From Flavobacteriaceae bacterium (GTDB lineage: Bacteria > Bacteroidota > Bacteroidia > Flavobacteriales > Flavobacteriaceae), in contig JADGEL010000001.1 of the NCBI GenBank assembly GCA_016744415.1, forward strand, positions 62,001-126,000: a stretch of DNA of 64,000 bases, written 5' to 3'. The translations under genes and the position numbers were made by a program. Below are positions 7,978-49,818 of this stretch, piece by piece. The first letter of the stretch is position 1, and every line of letters starts with the position of its first letter. The notes beneath the pieces were generated by a model. It did no database searches, was not told the DNA's origin, and worked only from the letters and a program-made list of their open reading frames with translations.

Positions 7978-8006
7978 AAAAAAACCTCCCTTAAAAAAGG
8001 GAGGTT
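7978..8006 (-). terminator. ilv operon attenuator terminator
   Basis: On the minus strand a perfect 10-bp stem AACCTCCCTT / AAGGGAGGTT with a TTTT loop is followed by a run of U (7984 down to 7978). It lies about 185 bases before ilvD and 40 bases after the leader-peptide stop. An upstream AAGGGA (8034-8039) can pair with the UCCCUU of its 5' arm (7997-8002) and so prevent it forming. Confidence 0.85.
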
Positions 8007-8033
8007 CTATTATTTTATAGTAAAATATATCAA

Positions 8034-8063
8034 TCCCTTATTGCTTTCATGTGATAATAATCA
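8034..8063 (-). promoter_or_regulatory. Antiterminator segment and leader hairpin of the ilv attenuator
   Basis: On the minus strand the last Val/Ile codons of the leader ORF form a small hairpin, TGTGAT-TATT-ATCACA. Seven bases after the leader stop comes AAGGGA (8039 to 8034), complementary to the 5' arm of the terminator; pairing can extend by two bases beyond one U-U mismatch. A ribosome at the stop codon would cover this segment, while a ribosome stalled at earlier Ile codons would leave it free. The folding was inferred by eye. Confidence 0.6.
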
Positions 8064-8109
8064 CAAAAAGGACAATAATTGAAATAATATTTAAATTGAT
8101 GTTTCTCAT
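8047..8109 (-). CDS. ilvL: ilv operon leader peptide (attenuator peptide)
   Basis: A 20-codon ORF: ATG at 8109, TGA at 8047. Its product contains 8 Ile, 2 Val and 2 Leu (12 of 20 residues), including Ile-Ile twice and a final Ile-Ile-Ile-Thr, the composition expected of an isoleucine/valine/leucine-sensing leader. Its ATG lies about 9 bases after a perfect -7 box, so the 5' leader before it is only a few bases. It is followed by an antiterminator segment and an intrinsic terminator, then by ilvD. Its role as a sensor is inferred from this arrangement and by analogy with enterobacterial ilv leaders. The symbol is borrowed from that analogy. Confidence 0.75.
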   Translation of the reverse strand: MRNINLNIISIIVLFVIIIT

Positions 8110-8118
8110 TTGAAAGTA

Positions 8119-8126
8119 CAAACGTA
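8119..8126 (-). promoter_or_regulatory. -7 box of the ilv operon promoter
   Basis: TACGTTTG on the minus strand matches the Bacteroidota TAnnTTTG -7 consensus exactly. It lies within 15 bases of the stop of the upstream gene, and 9 bases before the leader-peptide ATG. No clear -33 TTG element is visible. Confidence 0.65.
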
Positions 8127-8130
8127 TAAA

Positions 8131-9675
8131 TTATTTATTTAAAAGTACCGTCTTCCTTTTAATTATTTCTGAAATCGGAATTCCTTCAATATTACTTTCT
8201 AACCATGCCAAAATATCTAAATATAAAAATGCTCGTTTTTCATAAGGGTGATTTTCATATTCTAATAATTCTGAATGTAATTTTTTAAAGGCTGATTTTA
8301 ACTCACTTGGATACAAGTCAGTTAAACTTCTTAAAAAGACAATCATCTTTTTTTGAACCGCTTGCAGATCGTTCATTTTTATTAAAAATTTATAAGTCGA
8401 TTTTATCAAGGCATCAATATTTTCGTCTATTCCGGCTTCATAATGCGCCACTAAATTTAGGACTCTAGAGAAACATAGCAAATCCTCACGCATTGCCAAG
8501 TCTTTATTTTTGATAATTTTATTCAGATACAAAATAGAATTCTTGTAATCAGAAACTCCAAAATACATACATCCTATTTTATAGTAAAAAACCATGATGT
8601 GATGCTCATCAATCTTATTTTTAAACTCACCAATCTTATCTATAACAGCAGGCACATATGCTACACCTCCTTTAAAATCCGCCTCTAAAAAGTATAAATT
8701 CAATTTATTTTGATAATAATAAACATTTGCAATTGACTCGGTATTATCGTTAAACAAAAAGTTTTTCTGCTCAATATCAACTTTAAATCTATCTAAGGTC
8801 AGCCTAAACTTCTTGTGATGCTTTATCATAAAAAGTGACTCTAATAAATAATTGTATCCCTTTAAATAAAACACCGGATTCAATTTTTTCATCTCAGGTT
8901 TTGCATCGTAGATATCAATCCATTTTTGAGCATATCGATAACTACTCACAAAATCTTGAGTGATTAAACTGTACCACAAATACGCCATATACAAAAACAA
9001 CTTTTCCTTAAAACCGAGAGATCCAAAATTATATTCTGGTAATTGGGAATTAAAATAATGGGTTACTGTTTCTAAATCCTCTTCGTTTTTTGCAAAGCCT
9101 TTTTTAAGCAGCCAGCTATACAACTTTAAGGATAAATTTGACAACTTACTTGTCATTACATTTTTTTGGATCAGCCCTTTCGCCACCAAAGAAAGATTAT
9201 CAGCCCTATTACTTAAGCTACGGGTAATGTATTGAGATTCGATTGTTTTTTCGAATTCAACAATTTCATATGCCAACGTATGCTCTTCATTTTCAACTGC
9301 AGTATTTTTGGCTTTCCCTAAAATTTTTAAACTTTGATTGTACAATCCTTTATTGTATAAAATTGTTGCAAAATCAATTTGCTCACGAAGTTGACTACGA
9401 ACATTTTGATGAATTGGACTCAAGCGAAGACTCACCAATAACTGCTTATACAGATGCGCTTTTGAATTAGAAAGTTGTTGTTTTTTGATATTTGTCTTAA
9501 GCAGGATTTGTTTTTCATCATAAGCAAATGATTTATCCATCAAATTAAACAATGCCAAAAAATTTGATTCGGAATTCCCTCCTAATCGTCCAACATACAA
9601 TTTAAATTGTCGCTTTTCAGATTTAGACAGGGACTTTATCAAGGCAAATAACACATCTTTTTTTTCAGTAGCCAT
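8131..9675 (-). CDS. Conserved helical-repeat (TPR-like) protein of unknown function
   Basis: A 514-aa cytoplasmic protein with no signal peptide or membrane segment. Its sequence is a succession of amphipathic helices with TPR-like character, for example KGLYNQSLKILGKAKNTAV near residue 113 and VSDYKNSILYLNKIIKN near 390. The N-terminus is basic (KSLSKSEKRQFKLYVGRLGG), and the repeats probably form an alpha-solenoid for protein binding. I do not recognise a named family; similar genes occur as conserved hypotheticals in Flavobacteriia. It is upstream of, and co-directional with, the ilv operon, but that operon has its own promoter immediately after this stop codon, so a functional link is not implied. 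Confidence 0.8.
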   Translation of the reverse strand: MATEKKDVLFALIKSLSKSEKRQFKLYVGRLGGNSESNFLALFNLMDKSFAYDEKQILLKTNIKKQQLSNSKAHLYKQLLVSLRLSPIHQNVRSQLREQIDFATILYNKGLYNQSLKILGKAKNTAVENEEHTLAYEIVEFEKTIESQYITRSLSNRADNLSLVAKGLIQKNVMTSKLSNLSLKLYSWLLKKGFAKNEEDLETVTHYFNSQLPEYNFGSLGFKEKLFLYMAYLWYSLITQDFVSSYRYAQKWIDIYDAKPEMKKLNPVFYLKGYNYLLESLFMIKHHKKFRLTLDRFKVDIEQKNFLFNDNTESIANVYYYQNKLNLYFLEADFKGGVAYVPAVIDKIGEFKNKIDEHHIMVFYYKIGCMYFGVSDYKNSILYLNKIIKNKDLAMREDLLCFSRVLNLVAHYEAGIDENIDALIKSTYKFLIKMNDLQAVQKKMIVFLRSLTDLYPSELKSAFKKLHSELLEYENHPYEKRAFLYLDILAWLESNIEGIPISEIIKRKTVLLNK

Positions 9676-31007: not shown

Positions 31008-31078
31008 AGTGTAAAAGTAAAACTATTTTAATTGTTTAATGGGTTTACGCTTACGTGAGAAGGCAAAATTACTGTAAT

Positions 31079-31110
31079 AAAAAAAAGCGTATCAAATTTA
31101 AGATACGCTT
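31079..31110 (-). terminator. Terminator of the DUF3127 gene
   Basis: On the minus strand AAGCGTATC and GATACGCTT form a perfect 9-bp stem (31102-31110 and 31085-31093), followed by six U after the stem. Confidence 0.8.
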
Positions 31111-31121
31111 GTTCTTTTTAT

Positions 31122-31147
31122 ATTCCTGTTTCCACAGGAATGACAAT
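31122..31147. repeat. Single copy of the GGAATGACAAT hairpin repeat
   Basis: ATTCCTGT-TTCC-ACAGGAAT followed by GACAAT is a hairpin of the same class as the right half of 18879-18947. It lies between the DUF3127 stop and its terminator. Confidence 0.6.
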
Positions 31148-31151
31148 TATA

Positions 31152-31520
31152 TTAAAATGGTAAATCGTCTGGCTCATTGCTAGATAAATCTGCCGCTTGT
31201 ATTTCTTCCATTGGTGGCACATCAGCTCCTTGAGGTGCAGCTGCTTGTAAATTCTCAATTCTCCATCCCTGAATAGAGTTAAAATATTTAGCAACTCCTT
31301 CTGGGTTAATCCATTCTCTTCCTCTTAAGTTGATGGCTACTTTTACATCTTGTCCAACAGCATAACTGTTTAACATATCACATTTATCTTGTACAAACTC
31401 AATCATCAACATTTGTGGATATTGCTCGTTTGTAGTAATTACCAATTCTCTTTTTCTAAATCCGCTCGCTCCAAAAGTTTGCGTTTCATTAATCAATTTA
31501 ATTTTCCCTGTTACTTCCAT
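31152..31520 (-). CDS. DUF3127 protein, OB-fold-like with SSB-type acidic tail
   Basis: 122 aa. Beta-rich body (VTGKIKLINETQTFGASGFRKRELVI...) of the size and pattern of an OB fold, then an acidic linker and the C-terminal tip SSNEPDDLPF, which resembles the DDxPF tip with which bacterial SSB proteins recruit partners. This combination defines the DUF3127 family of Bacteroidota as I know it. A single-stranded DNA-binding role is likely but inferred. It is separated from neighbours, with its own promoter and terminator. Confidence 0.85.
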   Translation of the reverse strand: MEVTGKIKLINETQTFGASGFRKRELVITTNEQYPQMLMIEFVQDKCDMLNSYAVGQDVKVAINLRGREWINPEGVAKYFNSIQGWRIENLQAAAPQGADVPPMEEIQAADLSSNEPDDLPF

Positions 31521-48407: not shown

Positions 48408-48448
48408 AAGTTTAAAAAAACAAATATCAATAAATCAAATTCCAAAAC

Positions 48449-48477
48449 CAAAAAAGACTCTCGTTTTTTGAGAGCCT
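48449..48477 (-). terminator. Terminator of ahcY
   Basis: On the minus strand GGCTCTC and GAGAGTC flank AAAAAAC, pair with one G-U, and are followed by TTTTTT. Confidence 0.75.
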
Positions 48478-48501
48478 CTTTTATATTTATCGTTTAAAAT
48501 C

Positions 48502-49818
48502 TTAATAACGATAATATTCGGGTTTAAATGGCCCTTCAACAGGTACGCTAATATAATCTGCTTGGTCTTTACGTAACTCTGTAAGTTCGACGCCAATTTT
48601 TGCTAAGTGTAATCTTGCTACTTTTTCATCTAAATGTTTTGGCAACATATACACTTCGTTCTTATATTTTTCTGGGTGCAACCATAATTCTAATTGCGCC
48701 AAAGTTTGGTTTGTAAATGAATTACTCATCACAAAACTTGGGTGACCTGTTGCACAACCTAAGTTTACCAATCTTCCTTCTGCTAATAATAAAATATCTT
48801 TACCATCAATGGTATATTTATCAACCTGAGGTTTGATTTCTACTTTAGAAGCTCCATGATTTCCATTTAACCATGCCATATCAATTTCATTATCAAAATG
48901 ACCAATATTGCAAACAATAGTTTTGTCTTTCATCGCTTCAAAATGACGCCCTTGAACGATATCTTTATTTCCTGTTGTAGTAATAACAACATCTGCAGTA
49001 CCAACAACAGATTCTAATCTTTTTACTTCAAAACCATCCATTGCAGCTTGCAATGCACAAATTGGGTCAATTTCTGTAACCGTAACGATAGCACCTGTAC
49101 CTTTAAATGAAGCTGCTGTACCTTTACCAACATCACCATAACCGCAAACAATTACACGTTTACCTGCTAACATAATATCAGTGGCTCTTCGGATAGCATC
49201 AACTGCAGATTCTCTACAACCATACTTATTATCAAACTTAGATTTTGTTACCGAATCATTTACATTGATTGCTGGCATTGGCAATGTTCCGTTTTCCATA
49301 CGTTCATATAAACGATGAACTCCAGTTGTAGTTTCTTCAGACAATCCTTTGATGCCAGAAACCAATTCAGGATATTTATCTAAAACCATATTGGTTAAAT
49401 CACCACCATCATCTAAAATCAAATTCAATGGTTTTTTATCTTCACCAAAAAATAATGTTTGCTCAATACACCAATCAAATTCCTCATCATTCAAACCTTT
49501 CCATGCATAAACTGAAACTCCTTTTTCTGCAACTGCTGCTGCTGCTTGGTCTTGAGTTGAAAAAATATTACAAGAGCTCCAAGTAACATCAGCACCCAAA
49601 GCTACCAACGTTTCGATTAAAACTGCTGTTTGAATTGTCATGTGCAAACATCCTGCAATTCTTGCTCCTTTTAAAGGTTGTGAATCTCCATATTCTTCTC
49701 TTAAACTCATTAACCCTGGCATTTCTGCTTCGGCCAATTCAATTTCTTTTCGCCCCCAATCTGCAAGATTGATGTCTTTCACTTTATATTTTGTGTAAGT
49801 TGATGTTTCTGTGCTCAT
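48502..49818 (-). CDS. ahcY: Adenosylhomocysteinase
   Basis: Hydrolyses S-adenosylhomocysteine to adenosine and homocysteine in the methyl cycle. 438 aa from ATG at 49818 ([22 protein letters not shown]); the longer in-frame extension to 49896 overlaps the divergent gene and is rejected. The NAD motif is [12 protein letters not shown], preceded by [16 protein letters not shown] and [11 protein letters not shown], and the metal-free substrate region includes [14 protein letters not shown]. It follows its own -7 box and ends with a terminator. Confidence 0.97.

Follow-up and report, generated by a model that had tools for sequence, protein, structure and literature searches.

How is transcription of the ilvD-ilvB-ilvN-ilvC-ilvA operon controlled in a member of the Flavobacteriaceae? 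The operon is on the minus strand of the window, the 64,000-nucleotide stretch of DNA analysed here. Its genes, identified with NCBIfam profiles, are separated by gaps of 3, 6, 18, and 107 nt, and another gene on the same strand ends upstream of it:

9675-8131, minus strand: upstream gene of 514 aa
7792-6110, minus strand: ilvD, dihydroxy-acid dehydratase (TIGR00110, over cut-off)
6106-4412, minus strand: ilvB, acetolactate synthase large subunit (TIGR00118, over cut-off)
4405-3881, minus strand: ilvN, acetolactate synthase small subunit (TIGR00119, over cut-off)
3862-2390, minus strand: ilvC, ketol-acid reductoisomerase (NF003557 and TIGR00465, over cut-off)
2282-1026, minus strand: ilvA, threonine ammonia-lyase (NF006390 and TIGR02079, over cut-off)

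A sequence-only reading of this DNA had proposed that ilvDBNCA is subject to ribosome-mediated attenuation. The anatomy of the region, the gene content, conservation, ribosome-masked folds, and parallels at His and Trp operons all support this proposal. Thus, the operon is very probably controlled by a classical ribosome-mediated attenuator that would respond to the charging of tRNA for Ile and Val, and to a lesser degree for Leu, and that stands directly before the biosynthetic operon of the amino acids it would sense.

Anatomy of the leader region

Read on the minus strand, the region between the 514-aa gene and ilvD contains the following parts:

8126-8119, minus strand: P1, a -7 box, TACGTTTG, an exact match to the consensus TAnnTTTG that ends 9 nt before the leader ATG
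8112-8116, minus strand: predicted transcription start, at ~8114, placed from the position of the box
8109-8047, minus strand: leader ORF MRNINLNIISIIVLFVIIIT, 20 codons, with its ATG at 8109
8092-8081, minus strand: region 1, AAATATTATTTC, codons 6-10 of the ORF, pairing with region 2 in minimum free energy (MFE) folds and by covariation
8065-8050, minus strand: small hairpin TGTGAT-TATT-ATCACA over the final Val/Ile codons, present in sequence and folds
8043-8025, minus strand: region 2, with a core AAGGGA at 8039-8034, pairing with region 1 or with the 5' arm of the terminator
8006-7983, minus strand: regions 3:4, the intrinsic terminator AACCTCCCTT-TTTT-AAGGGAGGTT, 10 perfect bp with a TTTT loop
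7984-7978, minus strand: terminator T tract, the whole 3:4 element spanning 8006-7978

Twelve of the 20 leader codons specify branched-chain residues (8 Ile, 2 Val, and 2 Leu), an enrichment in codons for the products of the operon. The first base of AAGGGA comes 7 nt past the leader stop, and the terminator stands between the leader ORF and the first structural gene, ilvD being 185 nt further on. The sequence-only reading had named the exact -7 box, the ORF and its composition, the small hairpin, the AAGGGA segment, and the perfect terminator, and each of these is present as it described, the hairpin extending over Val as well as Ile codons; a role as a pause hairpin is possible. It had overlooked region 1 (8092-8081), whose pairing with the post-stop segment from within the ORF completes the classical 1:2, 2:3, 3:4 logic. 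By eye, a good -33 element is not seen with P1.

The leader RNA folds at -35.2 kcal/mol, compared with -19.1 +/- 3.5 for shuffled versions (z -4.6; 0 of 200 as low). When both strands of the window are scanned for a short amino-acid-biased ATG ORF with a terminator, there are two matches, the leader itself and an ORF at 8229 on the plus strand, which is antisense within the 514-aa gene and is without a promoter box.

From these parts, we infer the following sequence of events in the cell. Transcription would begin about 5 nt ahead of the leader ATG. In the absence of a ribosome, regions 1 and 2 would pair, leaving 3:4 free to form and to terminate transcription. When Ile- or Val-tRNA is scarce, a ribosome translating the leader would stall on the Ile/Val codons and cover region 1; region 2 would then pair with region 3, blocking the terminator and allowing read-through into ilvD. 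When the amino acids are plentiful, the ribosome would reach the stop codon and cover part of region 2, and the terminator would form. In addition, a second promoter beside ilvD may supply basal, unattenuated transcription.

Occurrence in related genomes

Among 119 genomes, including the source genome, 73 have an ilvD-family match at E <= 1e-50. Upstream stretches were taken from 63 genomes (L001-L064 minus L055, which is 76 nt long; nine distant or short matches were left out). A further 80 named loci came from a genome scan, in which they ranked best among 589 encoding a relative. Removal of 4 duplicates left 139 distinct ilvD-upstream regions. A leader was called by a strict rule: an ORF of 12-30 aa starting with ATG, with at least 6 and at least 35% Ile/Leu/Val, and a terminator beginning -5 to +60 nt from the ORF stop. 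This combination is present in 91 of the 139 regions and in 0 of 695 dinucleotide shuffles, and a chance ORF is rejected on this count. The sequence-only reading had proposed such an alignment and had held that a lack of conservation in close relatives would speak against an attenuator; instead, the leader ORF and stems are kept in relatives, with covariation in 1:2 and 3:4.

The 98 leader calls fall into two classes. Terminators of class A (n=83), to which the window leader belongs, are mostly built around CCTTCC, and those of class B (n=15) around CCTGTATC. When the 48 regions without a strict call are searched with a class A covariance model, 10 match at E <= 0.001, the degenerate L002 among them; some of the remaining uncalled regions come from other families of the order or from short contigs. 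The strict rule also misses loci in which another gene comes first (L242 in G026 and L239 in G088), where the gene after the leader resembles ilvE by eye. The leaders of L079, L057, and L058 are likewise far upstream of ilvD.

Close relatives include both retention and loss. One genome (G008; IlvD 97% over 434 aa) retains a nearly identical leader. In two others (G007, locus L002, IlvD 96%; G004, locus L003, IlvD 94%) most or all of the leader ORF is gone, and a promoter-like box and the terminator are still present. The leader device can be lost. By eye, a GTG in L002 could open a 5-codon ORF that shares the ending of the old one.

The class A model R1 has a match at E <= 0.01 in 70 of the 119 genomes, many of them weak. 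Two matches that were read, at L240 (E 1.7e-4) and L241 (E 0.0044), look like plain terminators, and the weak ones were therefore not used. Elsewhere in the window R1 has a weak match at 31076-31177 on the minus strand (E 0.023) and another match at 48445-48529 (E 0.54). In two genomes from another family of the order (G092 and G079; loci L237 and L238), a more distant ilvD-family gene is preceded by a leader and a terminator, the leader being MNNITDTLLITILLLLTGDTVR in one case and a similar peptide in the other.

Alternative helices

The class A alignment contains 76 leaders, 7 with an unusual ORF length having been left out. It shows a block within the ORF, consensus AAATATCATTTC, that is complementary to a post-stop block, GGAATGGTATTT, and the GGAA part of the latter is also complementary to the 5' arm of the terminator. 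RNAalifold, run on this alignment (A1), returned the terminator only. Since 1:2 and 2:3 were first picked out by eye in the same aligned sequences and only then counted, comparison with slid controls favours both to some degree: 1:2 is paired in 82.5% of 893 cells versus 47-56% when slid, and 2:3 in 75.7% versus 42-64.5%, its own register pairing best. Helix 3:4 is paired in 89.2% of 802 cells, with two-sided changes at 9 of 11 pairs. In a test against 500 shuffles, which the relatedness of the sequences inflates, the covariation score of 1:2 is reached by none; for 2:3, 100 shuffles reach the percentage paired, 308 the number of pair types, and 4 the covariation score. Covariation is seen in 1:2 and 3:4; helix 2:3 is less secure.

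Folding of the window RNA up to the terminator loop shows the switch in silico. Without a ribosome, 1:2 forms and the antiterminator is absent from the MFE fold. When the RNA is masked by a ribosome whose A site holds any of codons 8-20, 2:3 forms with 6 bp; at codons 5-7 the helix has 5 bp, and at the stop codon it is cut to 3 bp. The leaders of both classes were folded with a 13-nt lead, an antiterminator being defined as at least 4 bp. In class A (n=83), 2:3 forms at 759 of 818 Ile/Leu/Val codons versus 14 of 83 stop codons; in class B (n=15), these values are 126 of 136 and 5 of 15. Without a ribosome, 72 of the 83 class A leaders form 1:2 in MFE folds, yet 46 also form 2:3, and the antiterminator likewise appears in 8 of the 15 class B leaders. 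Controls with a shuffled spacer reach a 2:3 helix of at least 4 bp in 152 of 249 folds, compared with 83 of 83 real sequences. The pairing of the terminator arm with the AAGGGA segment, which was part of the original proposal, does form in ribosome-masked folds, but a fifth of the shuffles (100/500) pair to the same percentage. The predicted switch is well supported in outline, with helix 2:3 as its weakest point.

Predicted transcription start and a possible second promoter

In Flavobacterium psychrophilum, the TAnnTTTG box occupies positions -12 to -5 (PMC9723704). The same spacing places the window start at ~8114 and predicts a 5' UTR of ~5 nt. Thus, as the sequence-only reading had suggested, the leader ATG would be almost at the start of the transcript. 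This layout recurs in the relatives. A box with 5 or 6 of 6 matches lies inside 45 nt in 74 of the 83 leaders of class A, with a median predicted 5' UTR of 6 nt. For 64 of the 83, the predicted 5' UTR is no longer than 10 nt, compared with 103 of 1296 other ATGs from these regions. In F. psychrophilum, the 5' UTR has a median of 24 nt, and leaderless mRNAs make up 5.5% (PMC9723704). The box is farther off in His leaders, mostly ~15-19 nt by eye, and its distance in Trp leaders varies. Leaderless leader peptides occur in Sinorhizobium, Corynebacterium, and Mycobacterium; the near-leaderless layout is thus a feature of these attenuators and would involve no new principle.

A further box, missed in the sequence-only reading, lies downstream of the attenuator:

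7823-7816, minus strand: P2, a candidate promoter box, TAATTTTG, an exact TAnnTTTG that begins 31 nt before the ilvD ATG

Of 12 same-genus loci (a 13th, L042, was left out), 10 have an exact TAnnTTTG no more than 48 nt from ilvD. When the box is counted in 50-nt bins over the 139 regions, the two bins nearest ilvD have 24 and 28 loci, versus 3-14 in the other ten. Since an exact box is this close to ilvD, part of ilvDBNCA transcription may bypass the attenuator, and P2 may give a basal, unattenuated level of ilvD expression. The sequence-only reading had held that transcription starting downstream of the terminator would count against an attenuator, and P2 is a candidate for such a start.

Histidine, tryptophan, and tandem leaders

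Similar leaders precede other amino acid operons in these bacteria. In scans without a shuffle control, a His-rich leader with a terminator is present before 25 of 26 hisG loci, the one miss being a truncated locus, and leaders with 2 or 3 Trp codons are present before 28 of 28 trpE-like loci scanned, out of 30 returned (L199 and L200 were left out). The designation "trpE-like" is used because none of 40 genomes has a TrpE match over the TIGR00564 cut-off. The source genome itself contributes the leaders MNFNLTHRHHFFPYCSGEFVML (L153) and MTIIQNNIWWWNSLK (L190) to this His/Trp set, and His and Trp leaders with terminators in relatives are among loci L145-L198.

The window has a single attenuator. 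In 12 of the 139 ilv regions, however, two Ile/Val-rich leaders and two terminators stand in series, seven of these being found by the strict rule (L032, L046, L063, L094, L106, L121, and L141) and five by the model or a second scan (L024, L044, which is the same as L242, L057, L058, and L079). In the seven strict tandems, the second ATG has no box with at least 5 of 6 matches inside 16 nt; thus, the second leader probably relies on read-through of the first.

Alternative explanations

An attenuator is one of several ways in which these parts could be read. The hairpin might simply be the terminator of the 514-aa gene, with ilvD using its own promoter, P2, and the Ile-rich ORF arising as a by-product of AT-rich DNA. 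This would fit the position of the 514-aa gene, which is on the same strand and ends at 8131, the exact box 31 nt before ilvD together with its counterparts in 10 of the 12 same-genus loci, and the want of a good -33 element at P1. It would not lead one to expect an exact -7 box between the 514-aa gene and the leader ORF, nor boxes that predict a 5' UTR of at most 10 nt ahead of 64 of 83 class A leaders when only 103 of 1296 other ATGs have them. Moreover, the ORF, the 1:2 helix, and the terminator are retained jointly across the 76 aligned class A sequences, and leader plus terminator never appears in the 695 shuffles. We consider this explanation quite unlikely.

The two remaining explanations, each of which we regard as very improbable, give the leader another way of acting. 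One holds that the RNA is sensed directly, by a riboswitch, a T-box, or an RNA-binding protein, and that the ORF is a relic or an additional peptide gene. The leader RNA is indeed structured, but in an Rfam scan of the whole window only a tRNA reaches the gathering score, with no family at the leader, and on this basis a riboswitch or T-box was rejected. In addition, the run of codons tracks the operon, with Ile/Val codons ahead of ilvD, His codons ahead of hisG, and Trp codons ahead of trpE-like genes; such tracking is not predicted for a ligand-binding RNA. The other holds that the peptide itself acts, in trans or through nascent-chain arrest. A trans role has been reported for a Sinorhizobium leader peptide (PMC7298713), and such action would explain why many class A peptides are alike in their N-terminal part, MKKQILNIIS. 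However, the codons for ILNIIS are largely those of region 1, whose pairing with region 2 is accompanied by covariation; RNA pairing thus explains part of the likeness, and ahead of this block the window peptide differs (MRNINLNIIS). Ribosome-mediated attenuation remains the reading that we favour.

A poly-asparagine leader before gat genes

The strongest R1 matches away from ilv (E 1.4e-6 to 6.4e-5, in six genomes) are to a poly-Asn leader, e.g. MRNNNNNNNFNNPNA, followed by a CCTTCC terminator and then by gat genes:

L231-L236, L243, L244, L246-L249, and L273-L298 (e.g. L231:229-339): poly-Asn leader loci, in relatives only

The coding pattern is present in 32 of 397 family genomes and in 24 of 237 genera; in this search of 397 genomes, the source genome did not have it. 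Of the 32 genomes, 21 were read at this locus, and a GatA-like gene follows in 20, the contig ending after the GatC-like gene in the other. Where the sequence was read further, the order is GatC-like, GatA-like, GatB-like. The GatA match scores 429.5 bits, under the curated cut-off of 481.1. Two GatC-like proteins were scanned; a GatC match, itself below threshold, was obtained for one of them and no match for the other. At L293:191-3523, a 1111-aa ORF with GatB_N, GatB_Yqey, OB fold, tRNA-synt_2, and GAD domains joins a gatB-like gene to aspartyl-tRNA synthetase; an ORF read in the L294 sequence resembles it in build and length.

Among 12 family genomes with a close GatA-like protein, 6 have the Asn leader, 5 do not, and 1 is truncated. 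Asparaginyl-tRNA synthetase is present in all 12 genomes with a GatA-like gene. An asparagine synthetase B over the cut-off is absent from 7 of 10 tested genomes with the Asn leader versus 1 of 5 with a GatA-like gene and no leader, a comparison that covers the B family of the enzyme. In six Asn leaders that were folded, 2:3 is lost when the stop codon is in the A site; it forms in all six without a ribosome. Together, these observations suggest that the poly-Asn leader is an attenuator that senses Asn-tRNA and acts on tRNA-dependent asparagine synthesis. If it works in this way, asparagine would join the amino acids sensed by leader peptides, and asparagine sensing would be linked to an operon for indirect tRNA charging. 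A literature search, with most subscription journals outside its reach, found no paper on an Asn leader peptide.

A more general picture can be drawn, tentatively and with slightly more doubt than confidence. The Flavobacteriaceae may use one near-leaderless scaffold, with CCTTCC terminators and post-stop segments that resemble one another, whose target is set by the run of codons and which can occur in more than one copy. At ilv the codons would be Ile/Val, in a single unit as in the window or in two units in series acting as a multiplicative gate. At gatC-gatA-gatB::aspS they would be Asn, and the attenuator would respond to Asn-tRNA and regulate the tRNA-dependent synthesis of asparagine.

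Comparison with known systems

The attenuators of the enterobacterial ilvGMEDA, ilvBN, trp, and his operons have an ORF rich in codons for the product, mutually exclusive helices, and a terminator before the structural genes. The window has such an ORF and such a terminator, and the helices predicted for it would likewise exclude one another. It differs in its predicted 5' UTR of ~5 nt, in its Bacteroidota TAnnTTTG promoter, and in the position of region 1, in the first half of the ORF. The proposed mechanism, as judged from the sequence and the folds, would be the ordinary one.

Leader control of ilv genes is also found in other phyla. The Corynebacterium glutamicum ilvBNC operon is described as having a three-hairpin attenuator (PMC11857589); it differs in phylum and gene order, and the likeness is one of description, not homology. 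In Staphylococcus aureus and Listeria, again of another phylum, branched-chain amino acid genes are under a leader peptide or attenuator, with CodY as part of the control (PMC5794164, PMC5864092). The two short ORFs and serial attenuation of the Salmonella mgtCBR operon (PMC3641672) resemble the 12 tandem ilv regions; mgtCBR, however, is a Mg2+ transport/virulence operon, whereas both ilv leaders are Ile/Val-rich.

A 2004 comparative study is said to have predicted attenuators in Bacteroidetes/Chlorobi. The authors of a 2010 survey wrote that they knew of no leader-peptide system shown outside the Proteobacteria and Actinobacteria (PMC2965389). Some long 5' UTRs of Bacteroides thetaiotaomicron, of the same phylum, contain short ORFs described as reminiscent of attenuation leader peptides; the one given as an example is upstream of a gene for a hypothetical protein, and its authors defer validation to later work (PMC7366714). 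The nearest report is a 2021 transcriptome of F. psychrophilum, also a flavobacterium, which presents strong clues for leader-peptide attenuation, with structured 5' regions ahead of amino acid operons; the text does not use the term "ilv", and its main-text passages on the subject give no helices (PMC9723704). Leader-peptide attenuation is thus already reported in outline for one Flavobacterium. A literature search, which most subscription journals lay outside, found no paper on an Ile leader of ilvD in Flavobacteriaceae.

To this outline the present analysis adds the explicit parts of the attenuator and their distribution among relatives, and it describes a near-leaderless layout, tandem arrangements, and a related leader with a poly-Asn run. 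Flavobacteria are described as having no Shine-Dalgarno sequences (PMC9723704); thus, it is not obvious how a leader ORF could be loaded quickly enough to be coupled to RNA polymerase. A leader ATG ~5 nt from the predicted start, as in the window and at a similar distance in most class A relatives, offers a concrete answer that can be tested. Attenuation has been reported in outline for this phylum, and the set supplies named regions 1-4, together with natural deletions (G007 and G004) and natural duplications for comparison.
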